A stretch of 64,000 nt of DNA, taken from NCBI GenBank assembly GCA_022826665.1, contig JAJDUK010000031.1, positions 124,001 through 188,000 on the forward strand, given 5' to 3'. Positions 33,613 to 51,331 of the stretch are shown one piece after another. Every line of letters begins with the position of its first letter. Within the stretch, counting starts at the first letter, position 1. The notes below the pieces were generated by a model. It worked only from the letters and a program-made list of their open reading frames with translations, ran no database searches and had not been told where the DNA came from. The position numbers were made by a program, and so were the translations under genes. Source of the stretch: Alphaproteobacteria bacterium (GTDB lineage: Bacteria; Pseudomonadota; Alphaproteobacteria; UBA828).

Positions 33613-33651
33613 GGTGTGGATACGCTCGCGGGATGGTTTCTGGCTCATCCC

Positions 33652-33704
33652 GCGATGCTGCCCCGCGCCGCCCCTCCCTGTGCACCGCACCATGGTCCTG
33701 GGTC
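33652..33704. repeat. Dispersed short repeat containing ACCATGGTCC, copy 2
   Basis: GCGATGCTGCCCCG ... GCACCATGGTCCTGGG, matching the element at 28751-28802. It is directly upstream of the gp27-like gene and directly followed (after about 40 nt) by the hairpin repeat cluster, so the 336-nt gap before the next gene is essentially all repeats. Confidence 0.55.
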
Positions 33705-33743
33705 CCTTGCCGCCGGCAACAAACGAGGTGTTTGTCCTGATGG

Positions 33744-33965
33744 GACCGGGCCGCGCAGCGGCCCGGACGGCGCGCATGCGCCGCGCGCGAAGCGCGGAGC
33801 CAAGCGAACGGAGTTCGCGCCCGGCGATTGAGGGAAATGATTAAGTCAGGCCCGGACGGCGCGAATGCGCCGCGCGCCGAATGGCTCGTAAGCCAAGCGA
33901 ACGGAGTTCGCGCCCGGCGATTGAGGGAAATGAAAGAGTCAGCGCCCGGCGATTGAGGGAACTGA
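33744..33965. repeat. Tandem copies of the hairpin-rich repeat (copies B1, B2 and partial B3)
   Basis: Copy B1 (about 33744-33843) and B2 (about 33848-33942) each contain a GC-rich hairpin block, then AGCCAAGCGAACGGAGTTCG, CGCCCGGCGATTGAGGGAAA and TGA(A/T)..AGTCA; a third truncated copy (33943-33965) keeps only GCGCCCGGCGATTGAGGGAA. Copy A is at 8170-8277. Reading this DNA as protein gives the recurring SLNRRARTPFAWL, which is an artefact of the repeat and not a gene. It abuts the 3' end of the M29-like gene. Confidence 0.85.
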
Positions 33966-35162: not shown

Positions 35163-36848
35163 ATGACGAAGCGCTCGGGCGCGGAGGTTCTGGCGGAGAT
35201 GCTGCAGGGCTACGGCGTCACGCATGTCTTCATGGTGCCCTCCATCCTGCGGCGTGCGCTGGTCGAGATGGAACGGCGGACCACGATCCGGCGCATCCAG
35301 GTCCATGCGGAAAAATCAGCCGCCTACATGGCAGACGGCTATGCGCGGGCGTGCGGCCGGCCCGGCATCTGCATGGCGCAGGTGGTCGGCGCGCTCAACC
35401 TCGCTGCCGGCCTGCGCGACGCTCATCTCGCCAACGCGCCGGTGATCGCCATGACCGGCGGGCGCGACCCGCACACCAAGTTCCGCAAGGCGTATCAGGA
35501 CCTGGACGACATGCCGGCCTTCGAGCCGGTGACCAAGTTCAACGCGACCGTGGACGAGGTGACGCGCATCCCCGACCTGCTGCGCCAGGCCTTCCGGGTC
35601 GCGGTCTCGGGCAAGCCCGGCCCGGTGCACCTGCAGTTCCGGGGCAACGAGGGGCAGATCGACTACGAGGAAGCGGAGATGGAGCCGCTGGCGGAAGAGC
35701 TGTTCGCGCAAGTGCCGCCCTTCCGGCCGGCGCCGGCGCCCGAGCACGCCCGCGCGGCGCTCGACGCGATCGAGGCCGCCGAGCGGCCGGTGTTCGTCGC
35801 CGGCGGCGGGGTTCGCGCGTCGGGCGCAGGCGCGGCGCTGGTGGCGCTCGCCGAGCGCCTCGCCGTCCCGGTCGCGACCTCGCTCCACGCCAAGGACACC
35901 ATTACGGGCGATCACCCGCTCTCGGTGGGCGTCGTCGGAACCTACTCGCGTGAGACCGCCAACCGCGTCGTGGGCGAGGCTGACCTCGTCTGCTTCGTCG
36001 GCAGCGAGACCGGCGGCATGACCACGCATTTCTGGCAGGTGCCGCCCATCGGCACGCCTGCGGTCCAGATCGACATCGAGCCCCAGTCCCTTGGCCGCAA
36101 CTACCCGCTCAAGGCGGCGGTTTGCGCCGATGCCAAGATGGCTCTCGACTGGATGCTGGCTCACGCCGATCCCGGATCGGCCGAACGTCGGACGGCGTGG
36201 ACCGCCCGCGCCCGCCAGATCGTGGCGGAGTGGCACGATCGTTACCGGCCCCTCCTGGAGTCCGACGTCGTGCCTATCCGGCCCGAGCGCATCTGCCACG
36301 AGCTCTCCCAACACCTGCCGGAGGACGCCATCGTCATGGCAGACACGGGTCACTCGGGCATGTGGATGGGCGGCATGTACGACCTGCGCGCGCCCGCACA
36401 GAGCTATATCCGGAGCGCCGGCCATCTTGGCTGGGCATTTCCGGCCGGCCTGGGCGCGAAGTGCGCAGCGCCGGAGCGCCCGGTCTTCGTCTTCACCGGC
36501 GACGCGGGCTTCTGGTACCACCTCAGCGAGATCGAGACCGCCGTGCGCTGCGGCATCAACACCGTCACCCTGGTGAACAACAACAGCTCGGGCAATCAGG
36601 GCTCACCCGGCTTCGACCGCGCCTATGGCGGGAAGCAATCGGAGCAGGGACGCGAGCTCTGGACCTACAACGACGTCAACTTCGCCACAATCGCCGAGGC
36701 CATGGGGGCGCTGGGATTGCGCGTCGAGAACCCCGCCGACATTCCCGGCGCGCTCGAGACGGCCTTCGCCGCCAAGCGGCCCGTGGTGATCGATGTCGTC
36801 AGCGATATCGAGGCGCAGGCTCCGCTCGCGGTGATCGGCGGATCCTGA
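35163..36848 (+). CDS. Thiamine-diphosphate-dependent enzyme, acetolactate synthase/benzoylformate decarboxylase-like
   Basis: 561 residues with the three ThDP domains: pyrimidine-binding (about 1-170, catalytic Glu in VHAEKSAAYMADGYAR), a central domain (about 190-330), and the PP-binding domain with GDAGFWYH ... VTLVNNN as the metal/diphosphate motif. It resembles 2-oxoacid decarboxylases and glyoxylate carboligase-like proteins more than IlvB, and no small regulatory subunit is adjacent. The last codons read QAPLAVIGGS; a near copy of this end (QAPLAVIGGGG) lies 345 nt downstream, beyond the antitoxin. ATG 35163; a GGGAGGCGGAG ribosome site precedes it. Confidence 0.85.
   Translation: MTKRSGAEVLAEMLQGYGVTHVFMVPSILRRALVEMERRTTIRRIQVHAEKSAAYMADGYARACGRPGICMAQVVGALNLAAGLRDAHLANAPVIAMTGGRDPHTKFRKAYQDLDDMPAFEPVTKFNATVDEVTRIPDLLRQAFRVAVSGKPGPVHLQFRGNEGQIDYEEAEMEPLAEELFAQVPPFRPAPAPEHARAALDAIEAAERPVFVAGGGVRASGAGAALVALAERLAVPVATSLHAKDTITGDHPLSVGVVGTYSRETANRVVGEADLVCFVGSETGGMTTHFWQVPPIGTPAVQIDIEPQSLGRNYPLKAAVCADAKMALDWMLAHADPGSAERRTAWTARARQIVAEWHDRYRPLLESDVVPIRPERICHELSQHLPEDAIVMADTGHSGMWMGGMYDLRAPAQSYIRSAGHLGWAFPAGLGAKCAAPERPVFVFTGDAGFWYHLSEIETAVRCGINTVTLVNNNSSGNQGSPGFDRAYGGKQSEQGRELWTYNDVNFATIAEAMGALGLRVENPADIPGALETAFAAKRPVVIDVVSDIEAQAPLAVIGGS
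36816..36841 (+). repeat. Left copy of the duplicated ThDP-gene 3' end
   Basis: 26 nt inside the end of the ThDP gene (CAGGCTCCGCTCGCGGTGAT then CGGCGG) recur at 37161-37186 with one difference. The copies are in the same orientation and flank the antitoxin gene. Confidence 0.85.
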
Positions 36849-36876
36849 CCGATCCGGGCCGGATGTCTTCGCGCGG

Positions 36877-37095
36877 TCATGGCTCGGCGCGGCTGATGGC
36901 GTCGATCTCGGCGTCGGAAAGGTCTTCCACGGCCAGCGCTTGACGGTCCCGCCGCTTGAGGCGCTCATACTCGTCGACCGAGAGAATCACGAGCCGGTCC
37001 CGTCCGTTCCGGGTGATCGCCAGCGGTGCCTTCAGCGCCTCGTCCTGACAGCGCCCGAAATTGCGCTGGAACTCGCGTGACGTGACTCGCTGCAT
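36877..37095 (-). CDS. Phd/YefM-family antitoxin without a toxin gene
   Basis: 72 residues from ATG 37093-37095: MQRVTSREFQRNFGR, then AITRNGRDRLVILSVDEYERLKRRD, the Phd/YefM fold that binds its own operator and whose C-terminus normally wraps a Doc or RelE-type toxin. Downstream is only the end of the ThDP gene, so no partner toxin exists here. The predicted transcription start near 37117 excludes the upstream in-frame ATG at 37125, which lies in the -10 box; a leaderless start at 37116 is conceivable. Confidence 0.82.
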   Translation of the reverse strand: MQRVTSREFQRNFGRCQDEALKAPLAITRNGRDRLVILSVDEYERLKRRDRQALAVEDLSDAEIDAISRAEP

Positions 37096-37123
37096 GCCCT
37101 TCACCCCGATCTGCATGATCTGC

Positions 37124-37152
37124 ATAATACGGATTGTCAGACAATGTGTCGA
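37124..37152 (-). promoter_or_regulatory. Antitoxin promoter with internal operator
   Basis: On the minus strand TCGACA (37147-37152) and TATTAT (37124-37129) are spaced by 17 nt. The spacer holds a palindrome, ATTGTCTGACAAT (37133-37145). Downstream ATGCAGATC occurs twice in tandem. This is the expected layout for autorepression by the antitoxin. Confidence 0.65.
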
Positions 37153-37160
37153 GCAGCGCC

Positions 37161-37186
37161 CAGGCGCCGCTCGCGGTGATCGGCGG
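37161..37186 (+). repeat. Right copy of the duplicated ThDP-gene 3' end
   Basis: Matches 36816-36841 in 25 of 26 positions and continues in frame to a TGA (reading QAPLAVIGGGG), so it probably represents the original end of the ThDP gene, displaced by insertion of the antitoxin segment. Confidence 0.85.
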
Positions 37187-37202
37187 GGGCGGCTGAAGCA
37201 CG

Positions 37203-37233
37203 GGGCGGCGCGCCCTCTGGTTGCGCGCCGCCC
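37203..37233 (-). terminator. Strong hairpin after potF
   Basis: GGGCGGCGCGC (37203-37213) and GCGCGCCGCCC (37223-37233) form a perfect 11-bp stem with a 9-nt loop, 19 nt after the last gene of the pot operon. No T-run follows, so termination may be Rho-assisted. It could serve transcripts from both sides. Confidence 0.6.
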
Positions 37234-37251
37234 GGCTTCACATCAGAACGT

Positions 37252-38289
37252 CTACTTCTTCAGGCGGGTCCACATGGTGTCGTAGACCTCCTGGGTCGCC
37301 TGATCGCACACCGCGACGAACGTGCCTGCTGGTGCATCGGCAGGCGGCACGGACTCGGGCTGGCTGGCCAGTTCCGGATCGAGATGCGGAGTCACGCCCT
37401 CGACGCCAGCCGCATAGCGCGCGAAGTTGGTGACCGCGGCGATATTCTCCGGCTCCAGCAGGAAGTCCATGAACTTGATCGCGCTGGCCCGGTTGGGCGC
37501 GTCCTTCAGCAGCACGACGTTGTCCATCCAGACGACATAGCCCTGGCGCGGATAGGCGTACTCGATGTTGGCGCCCTCCGCCCGCGCCTTGGCGCCGAAG
37601 CCGTTCCAGATCATCCCCACGGCGGCATCGCCGGAAACGAGCACGTCCTTGGCGCCGTCGGAGTTGAAGGAGGCCCAGTGAGGCTTGGCCGCCTGCAGCA
37701 GCGCATCGAGCTGCTTGAGCTGCTCGCGGTCGTTCGAGCACTGCGGAATGCCCAGATGCAGCGCGGCCAGCAGCATGACCTCGCCCTGGGAGTCGAGGAC
37801 GTTGATCTTGCCCTTCAGCTCGTCCGGCGGGTCGTAGACGATGCTCGTGTCGTTGATGTCGCCCTGATAGACGTCCCGGTTCACCGAGAAGCTGGTCGAG
37901 CCCCACTGATAGGGGATCGAGTGCATCCGGCCCGGATCGAAGGGCACGTCCACCCACTGCGGCTCGATGTTGCCCCGATTGGCAAGCTCGCCCTCGGCAA
38001 TGGTGTCGAGCATGCCTTCGCCGATCATGATCTCGACCATGTAGTCGCCCGGCACGGCTACGTCGTAGGAGCCGAGCTTGCCGGCCTTGAGCGAGGCCAG
38101 CATGGCCTCATTGGAATCGAAGGTGTCCATGGTCACCTCGATCCCGGTCTCGGCCGCGAACTTGTCGAGCAGCTCCTGCGGGATGTACTCGAACCAGTGA
38201 TAGATCGAGAGCTTCTCCTGAGCCTGTGCCGCGCCTGCGACAAAGGTCAGGGCTAACGCCGCTATTCCGGCTTTGAGTAAGGTCCGCAT
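37252..38289 (-). CDS. Periplasmic polyamine-binding protein (PotD/PotF type)
   Basis: 345 residues. Signal peptide to AQA (about residue 23), mature start QEKLSIYHWFEYIPQELLDKF, the pattern of PotF/PotD-like solute-binding proteins (xxYxWxxYxP). Conserved AVPGDYMVEIMI and GMIWNGFGAKA segments line the polyamine site in the family. It would deliver an amine to the PotABC importer encoded just upstream; ligand specificity (putrescine, spermidine, or another amine such as histamine) is not determinable. ATG 38287-38289 follows AAGGAGGGAG. It is the last gene of the long operon. Confidence 0.92.
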   Translation of the reverse strand: MRTLLKAGIAALALTFVAGAAQAQEKLSIYHWFEYIPQELLDKFAAETGIEVTMDTFDSNEAMLASLKAGKLGSYDVAVPGDYMVEIMIGEGMLDTIAEGELANRGNIEPQWVDVPFDPGRMHSIPYQWGSTSFSVNRDVYQGDINDTSIVYDPPDELKGKINVLDSQGEVMLLAALHLGIPQCSNDREQLKQLDALLQAAKPHWASFNSDGAKDVLVSGDAAVGMIWNGFGAKARAEGANIEYAYPRQGYVVWMDNVVLLKDAPNRASAIKFMDFLLEPENIAAVTNFARYAAGVEGVTPHLDPELASQPESVPPADAPAGTFVAVCDQATQEVYDTMWTRLKK

Positions 38290-38324
38290 GTCTCCCTCCT
38301 TGGTTGCGGTGTTTACGGTGATGA

Positions 38325-39146
38325 CTACGCCTCCGCCTTCGTTCCAGGCCGCCCGTAACGGCTGATGAAATAGGACAGCGTGACGATCAGGATCGAGACG
38401 GAGAGCATGATGGTGCTGAGCGCCATGATGTCGGGTTTGATCCCCTGCTTGACGGCTCCGAAGATTGCCGTGGGCAGGGTCTCGATCCCGGCACCCTTGA
38501 TGAAGTTGGTGATGATGAAATCGTCCAGCGAGATGATGAACGCCAGCAGAAAGCCCGCGAGAATGCCGGGCGCCATCAATGGCATGAGAACGCGCAGGAA
38601 CGCCTGGAACCGGCTGGCGTAGAGGTCCTGCGCGGCCTCTTCGTAGCTGCCGTCGATGCCCTGCAGGCGGGCCGCGATGGGCAGGTAGGCGAACGGAATG
38701 CAGAAGACGATGTGCGCGACGAGGATCGACAGATAACCGAGCGTGAAGCCGATGGCGCTGAAGAAGACCAGCGTCGCCACGGCGGTGACGATCTCCGGCA
38801 CCATGATCGGCATACTGATGAGCGCGAGGTTCAGCGCCTTCCCTTTGAAAGCACCGCCCCGCACCATGGCCACCGCCGCAGCCGTCGCGATGATGGTGCT
38901 GGCGACGGCGGCCGAGAGCGCGATGGTGAGCGAGTTCCAGGCGGCATCCTTGAACTTCGCGGACTCCGGCCCGGTGAAGATTTCCATGTACCAGCGGAAG
39001 CTGAACCCGCCCCAGCGGGTGATGGAGAGCGAATCGTTGAAGCTGTAGACCATCACCACCAGCAGCGGCGCGTAGAGCACCACCAGGCAGAGGATCGTCA
39101 CCGGCAGGAAGCCGGGGTAGCGTTTGATGTTGATCCGTTGCCGCAT
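38325..39146 (-). CDS. Polyamine-type ABC transporter permease PotC/PotI
   Basis: 273 residues with six predicted membrane helices. The BPD_transp_1 domain (about 60-255) has the EAA loop [28 protein letters not shown] that contacts the ATPase. It begins [19 protein letters not shown] from ATG 39144-39146, one base after the potB stop, so the two permeases are translated together. Function: one half of the membrane channel for amine import. Confidence 0.93.
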
Positions 39147-39147
39147 C

Positions 39148-40074
39148 TCAGGCGGCCTGCGCGCTGCGCCGTGCCTGCCGGCGCGCATAGATGAAGAGCG
39201 CGATGAGCACGAGAGAGAGCAGGATCATCGACGCCGCCGCGCCGAAGGGCCAGTTGCCGGCATTACCCTTGAACTGCTCCTCGATCAGCGAGCCGATCAG
39301 GAAGTTCTTGGCGCCGCCGAGCAGGTCGGGCGCGAGGAAGGCGCCAAGGCTCGGCACGAAGACCAGGATGCACCCGGCCACGATGCCGGGCCACACGATC
39401 GGCAGGATGACCTTGTACAGGATGGTCCAGCGATTGGCGTAGAGGTCGGCCGCCGCTTCGGAGAGCGCGAAGTCGTAGCGCTCCACCGAGGCATAGATCG
39501 GCAGCACCATGAAGGGCAGGTACGAGTAGAAGAGCCCGAGCTGCACCGCGAAGTCGGTGTTGATCAGCGCAATGGGCTCGCCGATGACGCCCAAGCCCAT
39601 CAGTGCTTCGTTGAGCGGCCCGTTGTCCCGGATCAGGAACTTCATGGAGACCGTGCGTATCAGCAGGTTCACCCAGTAGGGCACCGTCACCAGGAAGAGC
39701 CACATCGAGCGCGTCGCGGGCGAGCGCGTCGCGATGAAGTATGCGGTCGGGAAGCCGATGATCAGACAAAGCAGCGTGGCGACGGCGGCCTGGATGATCG
39801 AGCGCACGAAGATGACGATGTAGGTCCACTCGATCTGCGGCGGCTCGTCGCCGAAGAGGCCGCGGTCGAAGATGAACTGGTCGTAAGCCGCGAGCGAGAA
39901 CTCCCAGATCACGCCGCCCCGGAACTCCTTCGTCAGGAAGGAGTAGGCCAGCATCATCAGCACCGGCGCCACGAGGAAGAAGCCGATGATCACCCAGGTC
40001 GGAATCAGCAACGGGGTGCGCACCGGCGCGAAGGTGCGGGAGACCGCGCGCGTGCTGGCGAGCTCGCCGGCCAT
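39148..40074 (-). CDS. Polyamine-type ABC transporter permease PotB/PotH
   Basis: 308 residues, about six membrane helices, first at [23 protein letters not shown] loop near 210-240 ([21 protein letters not shown]). The ATGA overlap with the potA stop (40074-40076) indicates coupled translation. Pairs with PotC as the translocation pathway. Confidence 0.93.
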
Positions 40075-41162
40075 CAGTCCACCAGGAGCCGGGCGCCGCC
40101 GGGCGCGATGGCGAGACCGACCCGGTCTCCGTTGCGGAAGGATGTCGTGTCGCTGCCAACGTTCTGCGCGCGCACCAGGACGTCCGGCCCCTCGTCCAGC
40201 CGGACGCCGTACTGGATGTCGGTGCCAAGATAGACGATCTGGTCCACCACGCCGGTGAGGCCGCTGTTGCTCTCCGCCTCGGGCACGAGCGAGAGGCGTT
40301 CCGGGCGGATCAGCACGTGCGCGGCAGCGCCGTCCTGCGGCGGCGTCCCCGCGGCCTCGCAGGGAAACACCGCGCCGTTGGGGAGCCGGCTATGCCAGGC
40401 GCCGTCCGGCCCGCGCTGCACGGTCACGTCGAGGACGTTGGTCTCGCCGATGAAGTCGGCCACGAAGCGGTCGTTAGGCGCCTCGTAGATTTCGTGCGGC
40501 GTGCCCACCTGCCGGATCTCGCCCGCCGACATCACGGCGATGCGGTCCGACATGGTCAGCGCCTCCTCCTGGTCGTGGGTGACGAAGACGAAGGTGATTC
40601 CGGTTTCCTCCTGAATCTGCTTCAGCTCGATCCGCATCGCCTGGCGTAGCTTGAGGTCGAGCGCGGAGAGCGGCTCGTCGAGCAGGAGCACCTTGGGGCG
40701 GGGGGCCATGGCGCGGGCCAGCGCGACCCGCTGCTGCTGCCCGCCGGAGAGCTGCGCCGGCCTGCGCGCCGCGAGGTCGCCGAGCTTCACCAGGTCCAGG
40801 ATTCGGCCGGTCTGGTCCTCGATATCGGCCTTGCTCCAGCCCAGCCTGCGCATGCCGAAGGCCACGTTTTCCGCCACCGTCATGTGCGGGAAGAGCGCGT
40901 AGTGTTGGAAGACCGTGTTGATCGGGCGCCGGTTGGGCGGCAGCGTGCCTATGTCTTCGCCGTAGAGCAGGATTTCTCCCTCGGTGATCTCCTCGAAGCC
41001 CGCGATCAGGCGGAGCAGGGTGGTCTTGCCGCAGCCCGAGGGCCCGAGCAGGGTGAAGAACTCGTTGTCCCGGATCGTCAGCGACACGCCGGCGAGCGCC
41101 GTCACCGCGCCGAAGCGCTTGACGGCGTTGCGCACGTCGATGGCGATGTCTTGCTCGGACAA
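40074..41162 (-). CDS. potA: Polyamine-type ABC transporter ATP-binding protein PotA
   Basis: 362 residues. Walker A GPSGCGKTT, Q-loop, signature LSGGQQQRVALARAM, Walker B LLLDEPLSALD and switch His in FVTHDQEEA are all intact; a C-terminal TOBE domain (about 270-362) is present. The start is TTG (41160-41162), preceded by GGGAGG at good spacing; no ATG lies near. It follows the histidine decarboxylase gene by 30 nt, tying the importer to that enzyme. Confidence 0.95.
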   Translation of the reverse strand: MSEQDIAIDVRNAVKRFGAVTALAGVSLTIRDNEFFTLLGPSGCGKTTLLRLIAGFEEITEGEILLYGEDIGTLPPNRRPINTVFQHYALFPHMTVAENVAFGMRRLGWSKADIEDQTGRILDLVKLGDLAARRPAQLSGGQQQRVALARAMAPRPKVLLLDEPLSALDLKLRQAMRIELKQIQEETGITFVFVTHDQEEALTMSDRIAVMSAGEIRQVGTPHEIYEAPNDRFVADFIGETNVLDVTVQRGPDGAWHSRLPNGAVFPCEAAGTPPQDGAAAHVLIRPERLSLVPEAESNSGLTGVVDQIVYLGTDIQYGVRLDEGPDVLVRAQNVGSDTTSFRNGDRVGLAIAPGGARLLVD

Positions 41163-41192
41163 CGGCGCCTCCCTTCGCCTGTCAATCCGCGC

Positions 41193-42131
41193 CTAGTGGA
41201 GAGGGATGTTCGGCCCGGTCAGGGTCTTGAGCGCGTAGTCAGGTTCCTCGACTCTGGAGAAGCCGACCCTGGACAACCACTCGTCCGTGGAAATCCCGAG
41301 GATATCCGTTTCTGAGGTCATGTTCGTGAACGCGCCGGACGGCAGGGTCACGTAGGGAGCGCACGCCAGCGCACAGCCCACATGGTTCTTCGGAATGTGG
41401 GACGCCTTCCAGCCGATGTAGATCTTCTTGTAGCGCGCGCCCTGATTCTCGCCGCACAGATACGCCGCATAGGCGATCCTGTTGAGCCTGTTGTCGAGTC
41501 TGGTTCTCACCGACTCTTCCTCGTCTCCCGCGAGGTGCATGATTCCCGTGTCTTCCATGAAGAGGCACGCGTGATTGTCGCGATCTTCCGCGATCGCAAA
41601 GCCTAGCGCGCACCAGATCCACATGTTGCCGTCCGAGACCATGCTGGTGCGGTATTTTTCCGCGCAAACGACCATGGCCCCTTCCTGCGGCGGGAAATGC
41701 CGCGCGTCGGCGACGCCGAAGAGTTGCCGGGTCGCGTCGCGCAACGGAATCAGGGAGTAGATGGGAATGTTCTCGATGCGCCCGACGGGATACGTCTTGC
41801 CGATGCGGGAATCGACGGCCAGGTCGTAGCCCCAAATCGCCCCATTGACGCCACTGAACGACGACGCCTGCAGCATGTTGACCTGGCCGATATAGGAATC
41901 GTTACACTCGGCGCGATCGTAGGACACGATTTCGGCCATGCCCTGGTCCAAATCCTCCTCGAACGGAAAACCGGGAAACTGCTCCAGGTTTACGGCACCT
42001 GTCGAAAGCAGGATGGTCGATATGTAGGATCCCGGCTGACCCGTCGCCGTCGGCTCCTGATATCCCCCGCAGCTGCTCGCCGTCGTGTTGCGACAATTCC
42101 GGACGATCTCTTCTATACGAGCGTCAGCCAT
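41193..42131 (-). CDS. hdcA: Pyruvoyl-dependent histidine decarboxylase family protein
   Basis: 312 residues, the length of the proenzyme that self-cleaves into beta and alpha chains and makes a pyruvoyl cofactor. EIVSYDRAECNDSYIGQVN and LQASSFSGVNG match the corresponding region of Lactobacillus 30a HdcA (YDRAE, IGQIN, TASSFTG); the Ser90-Ser91 pair is the expected cleavage site. FMEDTG supplies the proton-donor Glu (E193, equivalent to E197 of HdcA) and CAPYVTLPSG the C-terminal conserved block. It should decarboxylate histidine or a close analogue without PLP. ATG 42129-42131 follows AAGGA; IclR precedes by 12 nt and potA follows by 30 nt. Confidence 0.88.
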   Translation of the reverse strand: MADARIEEIVRNCRNTTASSCGGYQEPTATGQPGSYISTILLSTGAVNLEQFPGFPFEEDLDQGMAEIVSYDRAECNDSYIGQVNMLQASSFSGVNGAIWGYDLAVDSRIGKTYPVGRIENIPIYSLIPLRDATRQLFGVADARHFPPQEGAMVVCAEKYRTSMVSDGNMWIWCALGFAIAEDRDNHACLFMEDTGIMHLAGDEEESVRTRLDNRLNRIAYAAYLCGENQGARYKKIYIGWKASHIPKNHVGCALACAPYVTLPSGAFTNMTSETDILGISTDEWLSRVGFSRVEEPDYALKTLTGPNIPLH

Positions 42132-42143
42132 CGCGCCGTTCCT

Positions 42144-42905
42144 TCAGGCCGTGAATCCGAGCCGCCTGCCGAGATCGGCAGCGGCCTCGGCCAGTTTCTG
42201 CTTGATGCGGGTGGGCTCCATGGGGCGGAAGCGGTCCGCGAGCCCGGTGATGCCGACTGAGTAGAGCACGTAGCCGCCGTTCACGCGGATCGGGTGGCCG
42301 TAGCTCAACACGCCGGCGTCGAGTTCGTTGTCGCAGACCGCCACGCCGTCAGCGCGGATCTGCGCGAGCTCGTCGAGGATGTCGGTTTCCTCGACCTTGG
42401 TCTTGTCCGTGAAGCGCGTGCGCGGGCGCGACAGGTAGCGGGCGACGAAGGCCTCGTCCTGAAACGCGAGGAGCGCCTTGCCGCTGGCCGCCGCGTGCAA
42501 CGGCAGCTGCCGCCCCGGCTGCACGAAGGCGCGGTCCGAGCCCGAGGGCTGCTCCATCAGCACGGATTCCGCGAAGTCGCCGTTCAGCCGGGCCAGATGG
42601 GCGGTCTCGCCAAACTCCGCAACCAGCCCGTCGAGGACGGACTTGGCGAGCCCCGCATAGCCCGCACGGTCCATGGTCGTGTGCAGCAGGGTCTGCAGGC
42701 GCGGCCCGGTCACGTAGCTCTTGGTGCCGGGCGCGCTCCGCAGCAGGTCGAGGTCCACGAGCCCCCGGATCAAGCGGTGCGCCGTTCCCGGCTGCAGGTT
42801 CATCTCCCGCGCGATGTCGGTGAGCGTCAGGCCGGTCTTGGCCCGCGCAACCGTCTCGAGAACCCGGATGTACCGGCCCAGCGGCTTGTCGTTGCTATCG
42901 CTCAT
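42144..42905 (-). CDS. IclR-family transcriptional regulator
   Basis: 253 residues: winged helix-turn-helix (about 12-70, GLTLTDIAREMNLQPGTAHRLIRGLVDLDLL) and the IclR effector-binding GAF-like domain (HLARLNGDFAESVLMEQPSG to GITGLADRF). It is embedded between the molybdenum-hydroxylase and decarboxylase genes, so it probably senses a pathway intermediate and controls the run; candidate operators are at 51117-51147 and 52664-52676. ATG 42905 gives the usual IclR length; ATG 42935, inside the coxL-type gene end, is an alternative. Confidence 0.9.
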   Translation of the reverse strand: MSDSNDKPLGRYIRVLETVARAKTGLTLTDIAREMNLQPGTAHRLIRGLVDLDLLRSAPGTKSYVTGPRLQTLLHTTMDRAGYAGLAKSVLDGLVAEFGETAHLARLNGDFAESVLMEQPSGSDRAFVQPGRQLPLHAAASGKALLAFQDEAFVARYLSRPRTRFTDKTKVEETDILDELAQIRADGVAVCDNELDAGVLSYGHPIRVNGGYVLYSVGITGLADRFRPMEPTRIKQKLAEAAADLGRRLGFTA

Positions 42906-42924
42906 CGCCCGCGCCGTCGGGTTG

Positions 42925-45246
42925 TCAGGAGGCATCGCGCTGCTGCAACGCCGTGACCACGCGTTCCGGCGTGATCGGCATCTCGAACACGCGCACGCCG
43001 ATGGCGTCGGCGACCGCGTTGGCGATGGCCGGTGCAACGGCGGTCATGGCCGGCTCGCCGATGCCCTTGGCGCCGAAGGGCCCGACGCCGCTACGGGATT
43101 CGAGGATGATGCACTCGACGTTCGGCATATCCATCGCCGTCGGCATCAGGTATTCGCTGAACGACGGCGTGACCAGCCGGCCCTCCTCGTAGAGCATCTC
43201 CTCGCTGAGCGCATAGCCTTGGCCGTTCTGCGCACCGCCCTGGATCTGACCCTCGACCGCGGCCGGGTTGATGCACTGGCCGACATCGTGGGCGGCCACG
43301 CTCTTCAGCACCTCGACCTCGCCGGTCTCCACGTCGACCGAGACCTCGACCGCGTGCGCGCCGTAGGCATAGTCCGGGTGGGCCTGGCCCTGGCCGGTCT
43401 CGGGATCGAGAAAGTCGCCGAACGGCGCGCGGAAGATCGCGAGCTCCGAACGGTGGATGCCCTCGGCCGCGCAGGTGCGCACCAGGTCGACCAGCGGCAT
43501 GGTCTTTTCCGGCCTGTCGATGACGAAGACCTCGTTGAAGGCCATGTCGATCTCGTCCGGCGTCACGCCGAACTCTTGCGCTGCGCGCTCGGCCAGCCGG
43601 GCGCGCAGCCCTTCGGCCGCCTGCTTGGCGGCGTTGCCTGTCATGTAGAGCGCGCGCGTCGCCGTGGTGGTGCCGGCGAGGGGGGTCACGGCGGAATCAC
43701 TATTGTAGATGACCACGTTGTCCAGGGTGACGCCCAGCACCTCCACCGCGATCTGGCCGAGCGCCGAGATCTGCCCGGCGCCGATGTCGGTGACGCCGGA
43801 GCGCACCACCACGGTGCCGTCCATCTCGACTCCCACCCAGGCCTCCGAGGTGTCGTGCAGGAAGGTGAGGCGGCCGTAGCTCTGCTGGTAGCAGGCGAGG
43901 CCGCGGCCGGTCCGGATCGGCCCGTCCGAGGCAGTGGGCTCGCCCAGCCCGGCCCAGGCCTTCTCCGCGCACTGCTCGGTCCAGATCGCGCTCGGCGGCA
44001 CGAAGCCCGTGGACATGGGCTCGCCGGTCTTCAGGAAGTTCCGTCGCCGAAGCTTCAGGCGGTCGATGCTGAGCGTGTTGGCGATCTCGTCCATCTGCTG
44101 CTCGTAGGCCGCGCAGGCCTGTAGCGCGCCGAAGCCGCGGAAGGCGCTGGTGTACATATTGTTGGTCGCCACCGCCTTGGCGAAGACGTTGAGGTTGTCC
44201 ACCCGGTAGGGGCCGGGCGCCGCCACCAGCGCGTAGAGGATGACGTAGGGGCTGAGGAAAACGTAGGCGCCGGCATCGGCGATCATGTTCACGTCGAGGG
44301 CGGTGATCTTGCCCTCCTTCGTGACGCCGGTGCGGTAGGTCAGGATGAAGGGGTGGCGCTTGCCGTGGCCCACGAAGGAATCCTCGCGCGAGTACTCCAG
44401 CCGCACCGGCCGCCCGGTCTGCTTGGCGAGCAGCGCGAGATAGACCTCGACGGTCAGGTCCTCCTTGCCGCCGAAACCGCCGCCCACCAGCGCGCCGCGC
44501 ACGCGGACCTTGTTGTGGGGCACACCGAGAGCGTCGGCGATGGGCCGGAAGTGCTCGATCACCTGGGTCGAGACCCGGATGTTGACCACGTCGTTCTCGT
44601 CCACCCAGGCGAGGCCCACCTCCGGCTCCAGGAAGGCGTGCTCCTGGAACGGGGTCCTGTAGGTGTTCTCGACGATCAGGTCGGCCCTGGCGAAGCCCGC
44701 CTCGACATCGCCCTTCCTGATCTTGCGCTCGGCGACGATGTTGTCGCGGCCGTAGACCAGCGGCGCGCCCGGCTTCAGCGCCTCCAGGGTGTCGTAGACG
44801 CCGGGGATCGGTTCCAGCTCGAACTCGATCAGCTCCGCCGCGTGGTCGGCGATGTCGCGGGTCTCCGCCGCGATCAGCGCCAGCGGCTCGCCGAAGTAGC
44901 GCACCCGGTCCCTCACCAGAATCGGCTGGTCGGTATCGAGGCGCTTCTGGCCGGTCTGGCCGGGGATGTCGGTGGCGGCCGTGCGGTCGGCGAGGTCGTC
45001 GGCGGTGAGCACGCAGGCGACGCCGGTGAGCGCCCGTGCCTTCGAGACATCGAGGCGCACGAGGCGTGCGCTCGCGATATCGGCGCGCAGCACCCGCATG
45101 TGCAGCATGTTCGGCATCACGTAATCGCCGGCGTAGGGCGTGCGGCCCGTGACCTTGCCCGGCGCGTCGGTGCGGGTCAGCGGCTTGCCGACCTGCCGAA
45201 ACTGGACGTTGGCCAATGTCCCCGGATCCATGTCGGTGTGGGTCAT
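42925..45246 (-). CDS. Molybdenum hydroxylase large subunit (xanthine dehydrogenase type)
   Basis: 773 residues, the Mo-cofactor chain of a three-subunit hydroxylase. Hammerhead domain (about 20-135), then VGGGFGGKEDLTVEV, the SAFRGFGALQ loop (with Phe before Arg as in xanthine dehydrogenase/4-hydroxybenzoyl-CoA reductase types rather than CO dehydrogenase), and GAKGIGEPAM with the catalytic Glu. It hydroxylates an aromatic N-heterocycle or aldehyde carbon with water. Start ATG overlaps the small-subunit stop by ATGA. The neighbouring hydantoinase suggests the product is a cyclic ureide. Confidence 0.92.
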   Translation of the reverse strand: MTHTDMDPGTLANVQFRQVGKPLTRTDAPGKVTGRTPYAGDYVMPNMLHMRVLRADIASARLVRLDVSKARALTGVACVLTADDLADRTAATDIPGQTGQKRLDTDQPILVRDRVRYFGEPLALIAAETRDIADHAAELIEFELEPIPGVYDTLEALKPGAPLVYGRDNIVAERKIRKGDVEAGFARADLIVENTYRTPFQEHAFLEPEVGLAWVDENDVVNIRVSTQVIEHFRPIADALGVPHNKVRVRGALVGGGFGGKEDLTVEVYLALLAKQTGRPVRLEYSREDSFVGHGKRHPFILTYRTGVTKEGKITALDVNMIADAGAYVFLSPYVILYALVAAPGPYRVDNLNVFAKAVATNNMYTSAFRGFGALQACAAYEQQMDEIANTLSIDRLKLRRRNFLKTGEPMSTGFVPPSAIWTEQCAEKAWAGLGEPTASDGPIRTGRGLACYQQSYGRLTFLHDTSEAWVGVEMDGTVVVRSGVTDIGAGQISALGQIAVEVLGVTLDNVVIYNSDSAVTPLAGTTTATRALYMTGNAAKQAAEGLRARLAERAAQEFGVTPDEIDMAFNEVFVIDRPEKTMPLVDLVRTCAAEGIHRSELAIFRAPFGDFLDPETGQGQAHPDYAYGAHAVEVSVDVETGEVEVLKSVAAHDVGQCINPAAVEGQIQGGAQNGQGYALSEEMLYEEGRLVTPSFSEYLMPTAMDMPNVECIILESRSGVGPFGAKGIGEPAMTAVAPAIANAVADAIGVRVFEMPITPERVVTALQQRDAS

Positions 45247-45731
45247 GGTGCACCTCCCTCGGCGCGCATGTCGTCGGCCGCGTCGGCGATCGCCTCGAAG
45301 ATCTTGGTGTAGCCGGTGCAGCGGCAGAGATTACCGCTCAGCCCTAGGCGAATGTCGTCCTCGCTCGGCTCCGGGTGCTCGTCGATGATCGCCTTGGCCG
45401 CGATGATGATGCCCGGAATGCAGTAGCCGCACTGGGCGGCGCCGCCGTCGGCGAAGGCCTTCTGCAGCGGGTGCGGCGCATCCAGGTCGCCGAGGCCGGA
45501 GACGGTGGTGATCTCCTTGCCTGCAGCCATCCAGGCCAGCGTCAGGCAGCTGTCCACGGCCATGCCGTCGAGCAGCACGGCGCAGGCGCCGCAGTCGCCC
45601 TTCTCGCAGCCGCACTTCACCTCCATGTGGCCGAGGTGGCGCAGTGCTTCGAGGAGCGTGCGATGGGCGGGGAAGCGCCCTTCCTCCTCGCGGCCGTTGA
45701 TGCGGAGCGTGATGGTCCTTGTCTCAGGCAT
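45243..45731 (-). CDS. Molybdenum hydroxylase small subunit (2x 2Fe-2S)
   Basis: 162 residues. The plant-type ferredoxin domain has CGCEKGDCGACAVLLDG plus a fourth Cys in DSCLTLAW; the C-terminal helical domain has CGYC and CRCTGY, giving two 2Fe-2S clusters that pass electrons from the Mo centre to FAD. ATG 45731 is preferred because GGGAG lies nine bases upstream; GTG 45740 is possible. It is 13 nt after the FAD subunit and overlaps the large subunit by 4 nt. Confidence 0.93.
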   Translation of the reverse strand: MPETRTITLRINGREEEGRFPAHRTLLEALRHLGHMEVKCGCEKGDCGACAVLLDGMAVDSCLTLAWMAAGKEITTVSGLGDLDAPHPLQKAFADGGAAQCGYCIPGIIIAAKAIIDEHPEPSEDDIRLGLSGNLCRCTGYTKIFEAIADAADDMRAEGGAP

Positions 45732-45744
45732 GAGCGTCACTCCC

Positions 45745-46611
45745 TCAGGCCAGCCGGTCCCACGCCTGGGTCACCAGGCGCCGGGTCAGGGCTTCGACCG
45801 TGTGGCGGCGGTAGCCGGCGGAGGCCCGGATGTCGTCGATGGGTGTGCATGTGCTGGCGGCTGCTTCCGCCGCCTCGTCGATCAGCGCGGGCGTCAGCGC
45901 CTGACCTTCCAGCACCGCCTCCGCCTCCTTGACGCGGCGCACGACGGGCGCGACGGAGGCAAGCGCGATCCGCGCCCTGCTGCACGTGCCGTCCGCCACC
46001 GAGAGCGTGACCGCCACGCCGGTGACGGTGATGGCGTCGCCCTTGCGTCGCGCCAGCTTGTAGAAGGTGTTCGCCGAGTTCTCCGGCAAGCGCGGCCAGG
46101 AGATCCGGGTAATCAGCTCGTCCGGCCGCCGCGCGTCCTGCTTGTAGCCGAGGTAGTAGTCGTCCAGCGCCAGCGTGCGCGTGGCGCTCGCGCTCGCCAG
46201 CGTCAGCTCGGCATCGAGGGTCAGCAACGGCGGCACCAGGTCCGCCGCCGGTGAGCCGCTCGCGATGTTGCCGGCGACCGTCCCGGTGTTGCGCACCATC
46301 AGCCCGCCGAAGAGCCGCGCGGCCTCGATCAGCGAGGGCGCCTCGTGGGCGATCTCGGGCGAGCGCAGCAGGTCGCTCACCGTGGTGCGGCCACCGATGG
46401 AGATGCGCTCTGGCCCGAACTCCATGCCGAGCAGCTCGTCGACCTCGCCGAGGCCCACCATCCGGTCGGGCCGCTCGCGCTTCGCGCGAATGTCGACGAT
46501 CAGGTTCGTGCCGCCTGCGATGGGGAGCACGGTCTCGCCGCCGCCGTTCGCGAGCGCCGCGAGGGCGCCATCCAGGGTCGTGGGGATGTCCAGTTCGAAG
46601 GGCGCGTACAT
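45745..46611 (-). CDS. Molybdenum hydroxylase FAD subunit (CoxM type)
   Basis: 288 residues. FAD-binding PCMH-type motifs LPIAGGTNLIVDIRAK and VRNTGTVAGNIASGSPAADL hold the flavin, followed by the CO-dehydrogenase flavoprotein C-terminal domain (about 180-285). Start ATG 46609-46611 follows AGGAGG. It is the first gene of the subunit trio, 26 nt after the SDR gene. Confidence 0.93.
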   Translation of the reverse strand: MYAPFELDIPTTLDGALAALANGGGETVLPIAGGTNLIVDIRAKRERPDRMVGLGEVDELLGMEFGPERISIGGRTTVSDLLRSPEIAHEAPSLIEAARLFGGLMVRNTGTVAGNIASGSPAADLVPPLLTLDAELTLASASATRTLALDDYYLGYKQDARRPDELITRISWPRLPENSANTFYKLARRKGDAITVTGVAVTLSVADGTCSRARIALASVAPVVRRVKEAEAVLEGQALTPALIDEAAEAAASTCTPIDDIRASAGYRRHTVEALTRRLVTQAWDRLA

Positions 46612-46637
46612 CGCGAATCCTCCTGCCTCTGCCCGCG

Positions 46638-47420
46638 CTACACGTCCCAGCCGCCGTCGACCGTGATGGCCTGGCCGGTGATCTGGCGGCTGTCCTCGCT
46701 CGCCATGAACAGCACGGCGTTGGCCACGTCCTGGCAGGTGGTGACACGCTTCAGGCACATCTCCTGAACGTATTCGTCGTACACCTCGTCGATGGTCCAG
46801 CCGCGCACTCGGGCTTTCTCCTCGCAGAGCTTTTGCATGCGCGGCGTCTCGACGATGCCGGGGCAGACGGCGTTGACGTTGACGTTGTACTTGCCGACCT
46901 CCAGCGCGACCGTGCGCGTGATCCCGCGCACCGCCCATTTGGAGGCGCTGTAGGCGGTCCGCATGGCATAGCCGCGCAGGCCCGAGGTGCCGCCGATGTT
47001 GACGATCTTGCCGCTCTTCTGCGCGATCATGGTCGGCACCACGTGCTTGATGGGCAGGAAGGTGCCGATCTCGTTGGCCCTGATGACGTAGTCGAAGTCA
47101 GCCACGTCGATGTCCTGCACCGGCGTCTCGATGGGCCCGGTGACGCCCGCGATGTTGACCAGGATGTCGATGCGCCCGTCGAAGGCTTCGAGGGCCTTGT
47201 CGACCACCGCCTTGACCTCGGCATCTTCGGTCACGTCGCAGGCCGCGACGTGCGCCTCCCGCCCCAGCGCACGCACGTCCGCGGCGACCTGTTCGAGCGG
47301 CTCGGTGTCGCGGGCGGTCAGCACGACATCGGCGCCCTCGCGCGCGAGTGTCGTCGTGATGGCCGCGCCCATGCCCTTCGCGGCGCCGGTGACGATCGCC
47401 TTCTTGCCATCCACTTTCAC
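46638..47420 (-). CDS. Short-chain dehydrogenase/reductase
   Basis: 260 residues of classical SDR: TGAAKGMG cofactor motif, acidic residue after beta-2 replaced by ARDTEPLEQ context (NADP or NAD preference uncertain), NIAGV, and the catalytic YSASK with upstream Ser (GGTSGLRG). In this operon it probably interconverts an alcohol and aldehyde/ketone intermediate. Start GTG 47418-47420 with GGAG nine bases before; 25 nt after hyuB. Confidence 0.9.
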   Translation of the reverse strand: MKVDGKKAIVTGAAKGMGAAITTTLAREGADVVLTARDTEPLEQVAADVRALGREAHVAACDVTEDAEVKAVVDKALEAFDGRIDILVNIAGVTGPIETPVQDIDVADFDYVIRANEIGTFLPIKHVVPTMIAQKSGKIVNIGGTSGLRGYAMRTAYSASKWAVRGITRTVALEVGKYNVNVNAVCPGIVETPRMQKLCEEKARVRGWTIDEVYDEYVQEMCLKRVTTCQDVANAVLFMASEDSRQITGQAITVDGGWDV

Positions 47421-47445
47421 TGCACTTTTCTCCTGCTTGCGTCGC

Positions 47446-49041
47446 TCATCGGCCCTTGGTCTCGGGCTGCCCGTAACCGCCGCCGCCGCAGCTCTCGACG
47501 ATCACCACGTCGTCCCTGTCGAGGCGGAGGTTCGCCTTGCCCGGCATGTCCTCCCGGCTGCCGTCCGCACGCGCGATGGTCACGCGGAAGGGCGCCCCGT
47601 CCTCGCCTCCCTGCAGGCCGTAAGGCGGCACCACGCGGCGCTCGAACATCGAGGTCACCGACATGTCGTCGGTGAGCACCCGGTAGGCGCGGTGCAATCC
47701 CTCGCCGCCCTGCTGCCGGCCGGCACCGCCCGAGCCCCGGCGCAGGCGCTGGCTCTCGATGCGGATGGGGAACTCGGCTTCCACCACTTCGGCCGGCGTG
47801 TTCATCACGTTGGACATGTGGACGCGCACCACCGGCGCGCCGTCGCGGTCGTGCCGCGCGCCCTCGCCGCCGCCGTGGACCTCATAGAGCGTGGTCCAGG
47901 CGCCGTCGGCCCGCCTGCCGCCGAACAGCACCAGGCCCGACGTGGTCGGCCCGCCGGCGGAGATGCGCTCCGGCCCCACGGCTTCGAAGGCCTTGAACAC
48001 GGCGTCGGCGATCCGCTGCGAGGTCTCGTGGTTGCCGCCCACCACCGGGCTCTCCGGCCCCGGATCGAGCAGGGAACCGGGGCGGGTCACGATCTCCAGC
48101 GGGCGGTAGCAGCCGCCGCTCGGCTGGATCTCGGGGCCGAACAGCGTCTTCACCACATAGAAGACCGAGGCCGCGGCGATGAAGGGCGTGGTGTTCACCG
48201 GCCCCCGCGCCGCGTCGTCGGTCCCGGAGAAGTCGAAGCGGGCGCCGTCGCCAGCGATGGTGACGCGCACGCGGACGGCGACCGGCCCGCCGCCGCCGGC
48301 ATCGTCGTCCAGCCAGTCCGCGCCTTCGTAGGTACCGTCAGGAATCGCGGTGAGGGCCGCGCGCATCTGCGCCTCGGCCCGGTCGTGGATCGCGGCGATG
48401 GCGGCCAATACCGTCTCCCGCCCGTGCTCCGCGCAGACGTGCTGAACGCGCTCGTCTGCGGCCCGGCTGGCGGCGACCTGCGCCAGGATGTCGCCCTCGC
48501 GCTCGTCGGCGCCCCGCACGTTGGCACAGATCATGTCGAGCTTCTCGCGGTCGGGGCCTGCGGCGGTGAACAGCCGGAAGGGCGGGATGCGCAGCCCCTC
48601 CTGCCAGGCGTCGGTGGCGCCGGCGACGTAGCTGCCGGGCACCGCGCCGCCGATATCCGCCCAGTGGGCCAGGCTCGCCGCGAAGGCCACGATGGCGCCG
48701 TCCACGAAGATCGGCCGGATCGCCTTCACGTCGGGCAGGTGGTTGCCGCCCACCTCGGGCAGGTTGAGGAACCAGACATCGCTCGGCTCCAGCCTGTCGC
48801 GCGGCACCCGCTTCAGGAACTCGCGCACGGTGAAGCTCATCACCCCCATGTGCATGGGGATGTCGCGGCCCTGGGCGATGAGGTGGCCGTCCGCGTCGGT
48901 CAGCGCCGAGGAGAGATCGCCGGCCTCGCGCAGCAGCGGCGAGCGGGCCGAGCGCATGACCACGAGCGACATTTCCTCCGCCGTCGCCGACAGCGCGTGG
49001 CGGATGACCTCCAGGGTGATGGGGTCCACGGCGCCGCTCAT
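47446..49041 (-). CDS. hyuB: Hydantoinase B / N-methylhydantoinase beta subunit
   Basis: 531 residues of the HyuB/oxoprolinase C-terminal family (DPITLEVIRHALSATAEEMSLVV, GGNHLPDVKAI, VVGGNHETSQRIADAVFKA). With HyuA it forms an ATP-dependent amidohydrolase that opens five-membered cyclic ureides or lactams (hydantoin, N-methylhydantoin, oxoproline); acetone and acetophenone carboxylases are related, so a carboxylase is possible. ATGA overlap with hyuA proves close coupling. Confidence 0.93.
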   Translation of the reverse strand: MSGAVDPITLEVIRHALSATAEEMSLVVMRSARSPLLREAGDLSSALTDADGHLIAQGRDIPMHMGVMSFTVREFLKRVPRDRLEPSDVWFLNLPEVGGNHLPDVKAIRPIFVDGAIVAFAASLAHWADIGGAVPGSYVAGATDAWQEGLRIPPFRLFTAAGPDREKLDMICANVRGADEREGDILAQVAASRAADERVQHVCAEHGRETVLAAIAAIHDRAEAQMRAALTAIPDGTYEGADWLDDDAGGGGPVAVRVRVTIAGDGARFDFSGTDDAARGPVNTTPFIAAASVFYVVKTLFGPEIQPSGGCYRPLEIVTRPGSLLDPGPESPVVGGNHETSQRIADAVFKAFEAVGPERISAGGPTTSGLVLFGGRRADGAWTTLYEVHGGGEGARHDRDGAPVVRVHMSNVMNTPAEVVEAEFPIRIESQRLRRGSGGAGRQQGGEGLHRAYRVLTDDMSVTSMFERRVVPPYGLQGGEDGAPFRVTIARADGSREDMPGKANLRLDRDDVVIVESCGGGGYGQPETKGR

Positions 49042-51053
49042 GGGCCGGCTCCGGTGGCGATGTGGAGGTGGCCGGCGTCATCGGCGGTGAGCGTCGCGCC
49101 CGGCGGCACGACCACGGTCGACCACGCATCGTCCACGATGACCGGCCCATCCAGCGAACTATCCGGGCTCAGGCCCGCGCGGTCGTAGCGCGGCGTCGGC
49201 ACCGATCCGCCGGAATCGAACGTGCAGGGCTGCGTCTTGGTGGGGGAGGGCGGCTCGTTCGCCTTGGTCGTAGGGGAACGCACCTCGCCGTTGCGAGGCG
49301 CCGCGACGCGCATGCGGATCGAGACCAGCTCCCACGGCTCCTCGGTGGCGAAGCCGTAGAGCGCCCGGTGACGCTCAATGAAGGTGCGGCCCAGCTCCAG
49401 CGGGTCGTCGAGCGCCGCATCCGCGATCTCGATGGCGTAGCTCTGGCCGCTGTAGCGGACCGACGCCACCTCCTCGACCGTGAGCGCTGCGTCCTCGTGG
49501 CCGGCCGCCGAGAGCGGCGCGGCGAGGGTCGCGCGGAGCTCCCGCCGCACGCCGTCCACGCGCGCCTGAACCCACGAGTCGGCGGCCATCCGCAGCGTCC
49601 GCTGCTGCGCGTAGCTCATCTCCGCGCCGACACAGCCGAGCGCCGAGAACATGCTGGAATGCGCAGGGACCACCACCTTGTCGATGGCGAAGGCGCGGGC
49701 CAGCGCTACCGCGTGCATGGGGCCCGCGCCGCCGAAGGCGAGCAGCGTGCAGCTGCGCCCGTCGACGCCGCGCTCCACCGTCACTCGGCGCAGCGCCCGC
49801 AGCATCGCCGCGTTCGCCACCCTGACCACGCCCAGAGCCGCGGCCTCCGGCGTCATGTCCATGGCCGAACCGAGCGGCGCGATCACGTCGTGGGCCGCGC
49901 GCGCATCCAGGTGCACGTCCCCGCCCAGCACACGGTCCGTGTCCATGTATCCCAGCAGCAGGTTGGCGTCGGTGACGGTCGGCCGGTCGCCGCCCTTGGC
50001 GTAGCAGGCGGGTCCGGGGACGGCGCCAGCGCTCTCCGGCCCGACCATCAGCGAGCCGTGATCGAGCCGGGCGATGGAGCCGCCGCCCGCACCGATGGAC
50101 TCCACCGCCACCATGGGCTGGCGCAGGGGCCGCCCGCCGAGGGAGCGGTCGCTCGCGATCTGCGCCGCGCCGTCAAGGATCAGGCAGACGTCGGTGGTGG
50201 TGCCGCCCATGTCGAAGCTGATGGCACGCTCGATCCCGAGCGCGCGGGCCATGCGCCCGGCCGCGGCGACACCGGCGGCGGGGCCCGAGGCGGCAAGCCC
50301 GAGCGGCAGGTCGCGGAGCGCCGCAGGCGAGGCCATGCCGCCGGCGGAATGGAAGAGATGCAGCCGGGAGTCCTCCGGTTTCGCCGCCTCCAGGTCGTCC
50401 ATGTACGCCGCCGCCAGCGGCATGACGCCGGCGCTCAGCGCCGTGGTCGCGGTCCGCTCGTATTCCCGCGCCTCGGGATTGACCCGGTGCGAGAGCGCGA
50501 CGTAGGGGAACCGCGCGCGCAGCCTTTCGCCGAGCGCTTCCTCGTGCGCCGGGTTGGCGTAGGAATGCAGCAGCGAGACGGCGACCGCCTCGGCGCCGCT
50601 CGCCGCGACGCGTCCGATCGCGTCCGCCACTGAGTCCGGGTCCAGTGCGGTCATGACCTGGCCGTCGTGGTCGAGCCGCTCGGTCACCTCGAAGCGGCGT
50701 TCGGCCGGCACCTGGGGTGTGAGCTTCGGCGGCAGGTCCAGCCGGTAGAGGTGGCGCCGGTTCTGGCGCCCGATGGCGAGCGTGTCCGAAAAGCCGCGCG
50801 TCGCGATCAGCGCGACCCTCGCGTGCGCACCCTGGATGATGGCGTTGGTGACGATGGTGGTGCCGTGGATCAGGTCGTCCACGTCCGCCCATTGGAGATC
50901 GACCGCGCCGAGCGCCGCCACCAGGCCCGCGATGCGGTCGTCGGTGCGGGAGGGGACCTTCGCGGCTCTCACCTCGCCGCGCGCCCGGTGATGGGCGATC
51001 ACGTCGGTGAACGTGCCGCCGACATCGATACCGACTTGCCATCCCTTCGGCAC
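49038..51053 (-). CDS. hyuA: Hydantoinase A / N-methylhydantoinase alpha subunit
   Basis: 671 residues of the HyuA family: N-terminal ATPase motif VGIDVGGTFTDVI, ISFDMGGTTTDVCLI phosphate loop, and AFGGAGPMHAVALA. It activates the substrate by phosphorylation for HyuB. Start GTG 51051-51053 with GGAGG seven bases upstream. It is the first gene of the minus-strand run that ends with potF, about 64 nt downstream of the palindromic operator. Confidence 0.93.
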   Translation of the reverse strand: MPKGWQVGIDVGGTFTDVIAHHRARGEVRAAKVPSRTDDRIAGLVAALGAVDLQWADVDDLIHGTTIVTNAIIQGAHARVALIATRGFSDTLAIGRQNRRHLYRLDLPPKLTPQVPAERRFEVTERLDHDGQVMTALDPDSVADAIGRVAASGAEAVAVSLLHSYANPAHEEALGERLRARFPYVALSHRVNPEAREYERTATTALSAGVMPLAAAYMDDLEAAKPEDSRLHLFHSAGGMASPAALRDLPLGLAASGPAAGVAAAGRMARALGIERAISFDMGGTTTDVCLILDGAAQIASDRSLGGRPLRQPMVAVESIGAGGGSIARLDHGSLMVGPESAGAVPGPACYAKGGDRPTVTDANLLLGYMDTDRVLGGDVHLDARAAHDVIAPLGSAMDMTPEAAALGVVRVANAAMLRALRRVTVERGVDGRSCTLLAFGGAGPMHAVALARAFAIDKVVVPAHSSMFSALGCVGAEMSYAQQRTLRMAADSWVQARVDGVRRELRATLAAPLSAAGHEDAALTVEEVASVRYSGQSYAIEIADAALDDPLELGRTFIERHRALYGFATEEPWELVSIRMRVAAPRNGEVRSPTTKANEPPSPTKTQPCTFDSGGSVPTPRYDRAGLSPDSSLDGPVIVDDAWSTVVVPPGATLTADDAGHLHIATGAGP

Positions 51054-51116
51054 GGGCCTGCCTCCGGATGCCGGGTCGCCGGGCGGCCTTTCTTGCGGAC
51101 CGTTACGGCAACCGAG

Positions 51117-51323: not shown

Positions 51324-51331
51324 TTGAGGAG

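Follow-up and report, generated by a model that had tools for sequence, protein, structure and literature searches.

A divergent pyruvoyl histidine decarboxylase family gene in a genus-specific, putatively catabolic array of Alphaproteobacteria

The gene array around hdc

The window, i.e., the whole analysed stretch of 64,000 nucleotides, carries the array hyuA-hyuB-SDR-xdhB-xdhC-xdhA-iclR-hdc-potABCD on its minus strand, running from 51053 to 37252 with short gaps or overlapping genes:

49038..51053 (-): hyuA-like subunit of an ATP-dependent hydantoinase/lactamase (PF01968; nearest NCBIfam model caprolactamase alpha, below cut-off)
47446..49041 (-): hyuB-like subunit of an ATP-dependent hydantoinase/lactamase (PF02538, E 1e-177; nearest NCBIfam model caprolactamase beta, below cut-off)
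46638..47420 (-): short-chain dehydrogenase, SDR (PF13561)
45745..46560 (-): xdhB-type FAD subunit, start uncertain (PF00941, PF03450)
45243..45740 (-): xdhC-type [2Fe-2S] subunit (PF01799, PF00111)
42925..45246 (-): xdhA-type molybdopterin subunit of a molybdenum hydroxylase (PF02738, PF20256)
42144..42989 (-): iclR, IclR-family regulator, start uncertain (PF01614 / PF09339)
41193..42131 (-): hdc, pyruvoyl-type (histidine) decarboxylase proenzyme (PF02329, fold, invariant residues, dN/dS)
40074..41162 (-): potA-like ABC ATPase (TIGR01187 potA subfamily, 382.4 bits, cut-off 355.6)
39148..40074 (-): potB-like permease (PotB model, E 5e-71, below equivalog cut-off)
38325..39188 (-): potC-like permease (PotC model, E 2e-65, below equivalog cut-off)
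37252..38289 (-): potD-like periplasmic binding protein (PotD model, E 6e-61, below equivalog cut-off)

According to the list of open reading frames, hdc is an intact gene with an ATG start and encodes 312 amino acids. The iclR frame overlaps the 3' end of xdhA and ends 12 bp upstream of hdc, while the potA-like gene starts 30 bp past it. All four Pot proteins score below the PotA, PotB, PotC and PotD equivalog cut-offs. The initial annotation had placed hdc between an IclR gene (42144-42989) and a PotABCD-like importer (37252-41162). Both neighbours are real, and this setting is conserved across most of the genus. No description of hdc between an IclR gene and a polyamine-type importer was found in the literature.

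In the congeners the array order is kept to the limits of their contigs, save for the place of hdc in one genome (G004, see below). A potD orthologue occurs in seven out of seven congeners, and potD and xdhA, which were the two array genes compared across the family, are confined to the genus at high similarity. Homologues of the antiporter (hdcC), hdcB and hisS were found neither in the window, by tblastn, nor in the hdc loci of the congeners. No repeats were found around hdc, and no RNA element within 36800-52000 exceeded the Rfam gathering scores. Elsewhere in the window, further xanthine-dehydrogenase-like subunits (56362-58104 and 28839-31190) share approximately 27-39% identity with those of the array. 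The product of 32905-33777 (-) matches Phage_Mu_Gp27 (PF11985, E 1e-26) and may be a relic of a Mu-like prophage close to the hdc region.

Family membership and distribution of Hdc

Residues 19-292 of Hdc match positions 18-292 of the 294 positions of the Pfam HDC profile PF02329 with an E-value of 1.3e-45 (156.2 bits, cut-off 25), and the closest PDB match to its sequence is 1hq6/1pya, the chains of the Lactobacillus 30a histidine decarboxylase. An AlphaFold2 model built on an input alignment of 38 homologues reached a mean pLDDT of 91.4. Chain 1pya_B is its top match both by Foldseek (E 3.4e-15) and by VIA (Z 22.5, rmsd 1.9 Å over 207 residues), where the VIA match spans residues 92-305, i.e., the portion after the predicted cleavage site. 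The next structural match is the pyruvoyl arginine decarboxylase of Methanococcus jannaschii. The profile search and the comparison with 1PYA-like folds, both suggested by the initial annotation as checks, confirm its assignment to the pyruvoyl HdcA family.

The open reading frame and the four motifs that had been pointed out, SYDRAE (70-75), YIGQVN (80-85), ASSFSG (89-94) and FMEDTG (191-196), lie exactly where they had been placed. The predicted cleavage site Ser90-Ser91 aligns with the chain boundary of 1hq6, and the predicted acid catalyst Glu193 is the equivalent of 1PYA Glu197, so that both predictions agree with the alignment. Ser90, Ser91 and Glu193 are invariant in the 38 aligned homologues, as are Phe92, Asp72, Glu75 and Lys159; Tyr71 and Phe191 are almost invariant. 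Hdc keeps the equivalents of 1PYA Ile59, Tyr62, Asp63, Glu66, Ser81-Ser82, Phe83, Lys155, Phe195 and Glu197, some of which line the histidine pocket. Family match, fold and conserved residues are beyond chance by far: Hdc is a true member of the pyruvoyl histidine decarboxylase family, conserved and divergent.

As to the name histidine decarboxylase, the family part stands while the substrate is less certain. Against the equivalog model TIGR00541 (histidine decarboxylase, pyruvoyl type) Hdc reaches 151.8 bits, below the cut-off of 346.65, and its clade sits on a long stem of 1.55 changes per column; histidine is therefore a likely, inferred substrate. It is the first guess, with histamine as the product, since the pocket residues are unchanged. 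Self-cleavage of the proenzyme would fall between Ser90 and Ser91 and create a pyruvoyl group at the new N-terminus, residue 91. This group would form a Schiff base with the amino acid, most likely histidine, and Glu193 would protonate the product, then histamine, once CO2 is lost.

The initial view of the family as mainly Gram-positive is outdated. Pyruvoyl hdcA was reported in 2021 from six phyla, Proteobacteria included (PMC8465708), and genes on PLSDB plasmids of Salipiger, Methylocystis and Rhizobium are already annotated as "histidine decarboxylase, pyruvoyl type". Our genome scan for HDC homologues gave 80 loci, including Bacteroidota, Cyanobacteriota, Actinomycetota, Acidobacteriota and Nitrospirota. 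In samples drawn evenly from the class and the phylum the gene is rare, and it is absent from every other genus of the window's family among the genomes searched. Within the genus it is present in the window genome and in six of the seven congeners, among them all five with a completeness of at least 90%.

A tree built from 75 family members unites the window Hdc with its counterparts from the six congeners in a single clade, at a large distance from the HdcA enzymes of Firmicutes. The nearest group comprises Rhodobacterales/Stappiaceae sequences and one cyanobacterium, with a support of 87/81 that is not firm; given this support and the long stem, a firm placement of the genus clade is not possible. 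Across the six congeners dN/dS ranges from 0.07 to 0.17, and hdc is under purifying selection. Its GC3 in the window lineage is 0.80 versus approximately 0.92 in its neighbours, which fits a later arrival. We rejected the idea of a random recent insert, because the gene is under purifying selection and stays with the cluster in six congeners.

The long stem and the TIGR00541 score below the cut-off would also fit a change of substrate, such that Hdc decarboxylates an amino acid other than histidine, e.g., one that is cyclic or a modified histidine, in a route served by its neighbours. This would be in agreement with a cluster that is genus-specific and whose hyuA and hyuB products have caprolactamase as their nearest NCBIfam models, and with a family that diversifies, as seen from Rhizobium homologues with altered active sites. 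We nevertheless regard such a change as unlikely, in view of the unchanged pocket residues and of the adjacent dehydrogenase of the congeners, which resembles histamine dehydrogenases (see below).

The altered Rhizobium homologues are plasmid-borne (L012:8956-9948 and L013:8956-9948) and read SGDRCRV for SYDRAE and ATSYTG for ASSFSG. One of them is annotated as pyruvoyl histidine decarboxylase; judged from these motifs, they possibly have a different activity. A separate HDC clade (L011, L021, L102), found on a Methylocystis plasmid, in another alphaproteobacterium and in a Nitrospira MAG, carries ELCG or EACD in place of EDxG after the acid Glu.

Dehydrogenase link and possible fate of the amine

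A histamine-dehydrogenase-like gene lies 3' of potD in four congeners (G002, G004, G006 and G007). G004 shows the order iclR-potABCD-flavoprotein-hdc, where the flavoprotein has 691 amino acids and hdc starts 23 bp after its gene. G006 and G007 likewise have the flavoprotein gene after potD, but their hdc is still located after iclR, and G002 has the same two halves split over two contigs. A 1013-aa open frame in G004 raised the question of a fusion of Hdc to an upstream protein. This was rejected, as the upstream part is an open but non-coding frame and hdc has its own ATG 23 bp after the dehydrogenase gene.

Among PDB entries, the congener flavoprotein best matches two histamine dehydrogenases, 6de6 (E 1e-269) and 3k30 (E 2e-263), with trimethylamine dehydrogenase (TMADH) well behind. 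It keeps the catalytic Tyr/His/Asp as well as Gln60, Phe72, Glu74, Trp263 and Asp354, residues named for the Rhizobium histamine dehydrogenase, HDH (PMC10180351), whose numbering is used here. In the window genome and in G005, the closest homologue is 75% identical, lies on another contig and has Glu at the Gln60 position; in the window genome it adjoins putA, outside the hdc cluster. The window-genome homologue shares with the congener flavoprotein the catalytic Tyr/His/Asp and the Asp354-type residue that replaces Trp355 of TMADH. Both types were not seen together in one genome of the genus, some genomes of which are incomplete. From their sequences, we refer to these proteins as histamine-dehydrogenase-like. 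Judged by title and abstract, none of the papers found that mention histamine dehydrogenase together with histidine decarboxylase deals with a cluster of this kind. Genomes of the window's family (G000-G020) hold up to ten TMADH/histamine-dehydrogenase-like flavoproteins each, which suggests a broad use of amines.

Implementing these facts, our best explanation is that Hdc converts histidine to histamine within a catabolic cluster that oxidises histamine inside the cell, a reading we hold with a probability of roughly 0.6. Histamine would be made in the cell or imported via the Pot-like importer, and would be oxidised to the aldehyde by the flavoprotein encoded after potD in four congeners and on another contig in the window genome. 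The molybdenum hydroxylase and the hydantoinase-like enzymes may then process the aldehyde further. Family, fold, conserved residues, gene order and conservation are observed; the self-cleavage, the use of histidine as substrate, the role of histamine as the shared intermediate and all later steps are inferred. An importer and breakdown enzymes in place of the usual histamine exporter suggest that histamine is consumed and not secreted. Several facts count against this explanation, namely a TIGR00541 score of less than half the cut-off, approximately 30% identity to the HdcA of Tetragenococcus and Limosilactobacillus and the stem of 1.55, as well as the dehydrogenase of the window genome, which is located outside the cluster with 75% identity and Glu for Gln60.

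Alternatively, histamine might be made for release in the manner of lactic acid bacteria, as a host signal or to balance pH or redox state, with the catabolic neighbours being incidental. The pyruvoyl HDCs studied to date serve histidine/histamine exchange (PMC8465708), and the low GC3 of hdc fits a later arrival. Some congeners are MAGs named RHO, which, going by the name alone, possibly stands for the sponge Rhopaloeides odorabile, and histamine was measured in other sponges (PMC8706640). We consider release improbable, the least probable of the readings weighed here: antiporter, hdcB and hisS were not found nearby, hdc is followed by an importer instead, and the repositioned hdc of G004 remains in the cluster, directly behind the dehydrogenase.

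The importer and the dehydrogenase also occur together without hdc. In three other Alphaproteobacteria (G104, G196, G218), potABCD orthologues (potD 52-71% identical) are linked to a histamine-dehydrogenase-like gene and to aguB, which scores over its equivalog cut-off; two of the three modules (G196 and G218) contain argE-like genes. This arrangement counts against the histamine reading, since the amine of the module may be agmatine or a polyamine, and the histamine dehydrogenases of Rhizobium and Nocardioides (N. simplex) oxidise agmatine too (PMC10180351). Importer and dehydrogenase could hence serve agmatine or polyamines, with hdc as a separate co-transcribed passenger. This appears doubtful to us, given that the genus array showed no gene resembling aguB and that most residues on record as binding histamine are retained in the potD-adjacent dehydrogenase. 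The importer-dehydrogenase pair without hdc is probably the older module, which hdc joined, in one species directly behind the dehydrogenase; histamine is thus the best single guess for the amine of the hdc/importer/dehydrogenase cluster.

With respect to histidine degradation, the window genome contains hutU, hutC, hutG, hutI and hutF (G000:C100, L148, and G000:C19, L149:5541-6992), which likewise counts against intracellular histamine catabolism as the best explanation. In this genome, which is 99% complete, no HutH scored over the NCBIfam cut-off; one divergent aromatic ammonia-lyase encoded elsewhere reaches 148 bits versus a HutH cut-off of 539. These data would allow a further route into histidine degradation, without demonstrating one. 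A tentative and rather unlikely proposal for the genus is a route from histidine via histamine, as a catabolic intermediate, to imidazole-acetaldehyde, where the pyruvoyl enzyme and the flavoprotein dehydrogenase would catalyse the first two steps, the Xdh-type enzyme would hydroxylate the imidazole ring and the HyuAB-type enzyme would open it. If true, histidine degradation would have an entry independent of histidine ammonia-lyase.

From a biological point of view, histamine production by bacteria has so far been studied almost only as an exchange of amino acid and amine with release of histamine. If hdc acts together with the importer and, in the congeners, the dehydrogenase-like gene, histamine can be an internal intermediate, and an hdcA homologue need not mean a histamine producer.

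Comparison with known systems

Hdc shares with the HdcA enzymes of Lactobacillus 30a (1PYA), Tetragenococcus and Limosilactobacillus the fold, the Ser-Ser cleavage site, the Tyr-Asp-x-x-Glu motif and the Glu197 equivalent. It differs by an insert of approximately 11 residues near residues 50-61 and by an identity of only about 30% to the Tetragenococcus and Limosilactobacillus enzymes. In contrast to the HdcA operons, the window hdc has no antiporter, hdcB or hisS neighbours, but an importer and oxidative genes instead.

The HDCs of Rhodobacterales and Stappiaceae (Salipiger, Yoonia, Palleronia, Roseibium) are approximately 40-45% identical and have the same active-site residues, whereas their genes directly follow a transglutaminase-like (TGL) gene and not iclR, with no importer after hdc. 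Such pairs, in which the TGL gene encodes about 420 amino acids, occur in Rhodobacterales, Stappiaceae and two MAG loci (L010:8641-9960, L058:8678-9916, L059:8703-9986, L061:8742-9986, L065:8678-9964, L067, L072, L079, L080). The TGL gene matches PF20085 (protein-glutamine gamma-glutamyltransferase; E 1e-9 for L010) and contains the invariant motif RGECAGA, and the model of a Rhodobacterales TGL-like protein has a mean pLDDT of 48. In animals, histamine is a known amine donor of transglutaminases, so the TGL-hdc pair could histaminylate proteins.

With the histamine dehydrogenases of Rhizobium sp. (6DE6) and Nocardioides simplex (3K30), the copies of the genus share the catalytic triad and the Asp replacing the Trp of TMADH. 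They differ from the Rhizobium enzyme in having His for Asn at position 110 and Leu for Phe at 176, and the homologue of the window genome is not adjacent to hdc. The hin system of Pseudomonas follows a logic similar to the one proposed here, from histamine via aldehyde and acid to central metabolism, but it uses an aminotransferase and an APC permease, and no histidine decarboxylase step is described for it (PMC8231116). The enzyme type encoded by hdc is already known; new is its setting in a genus-specific array devoid of antiporter, hdcB and hisS, which is best read as a catabolic variant built on a known enzyme.
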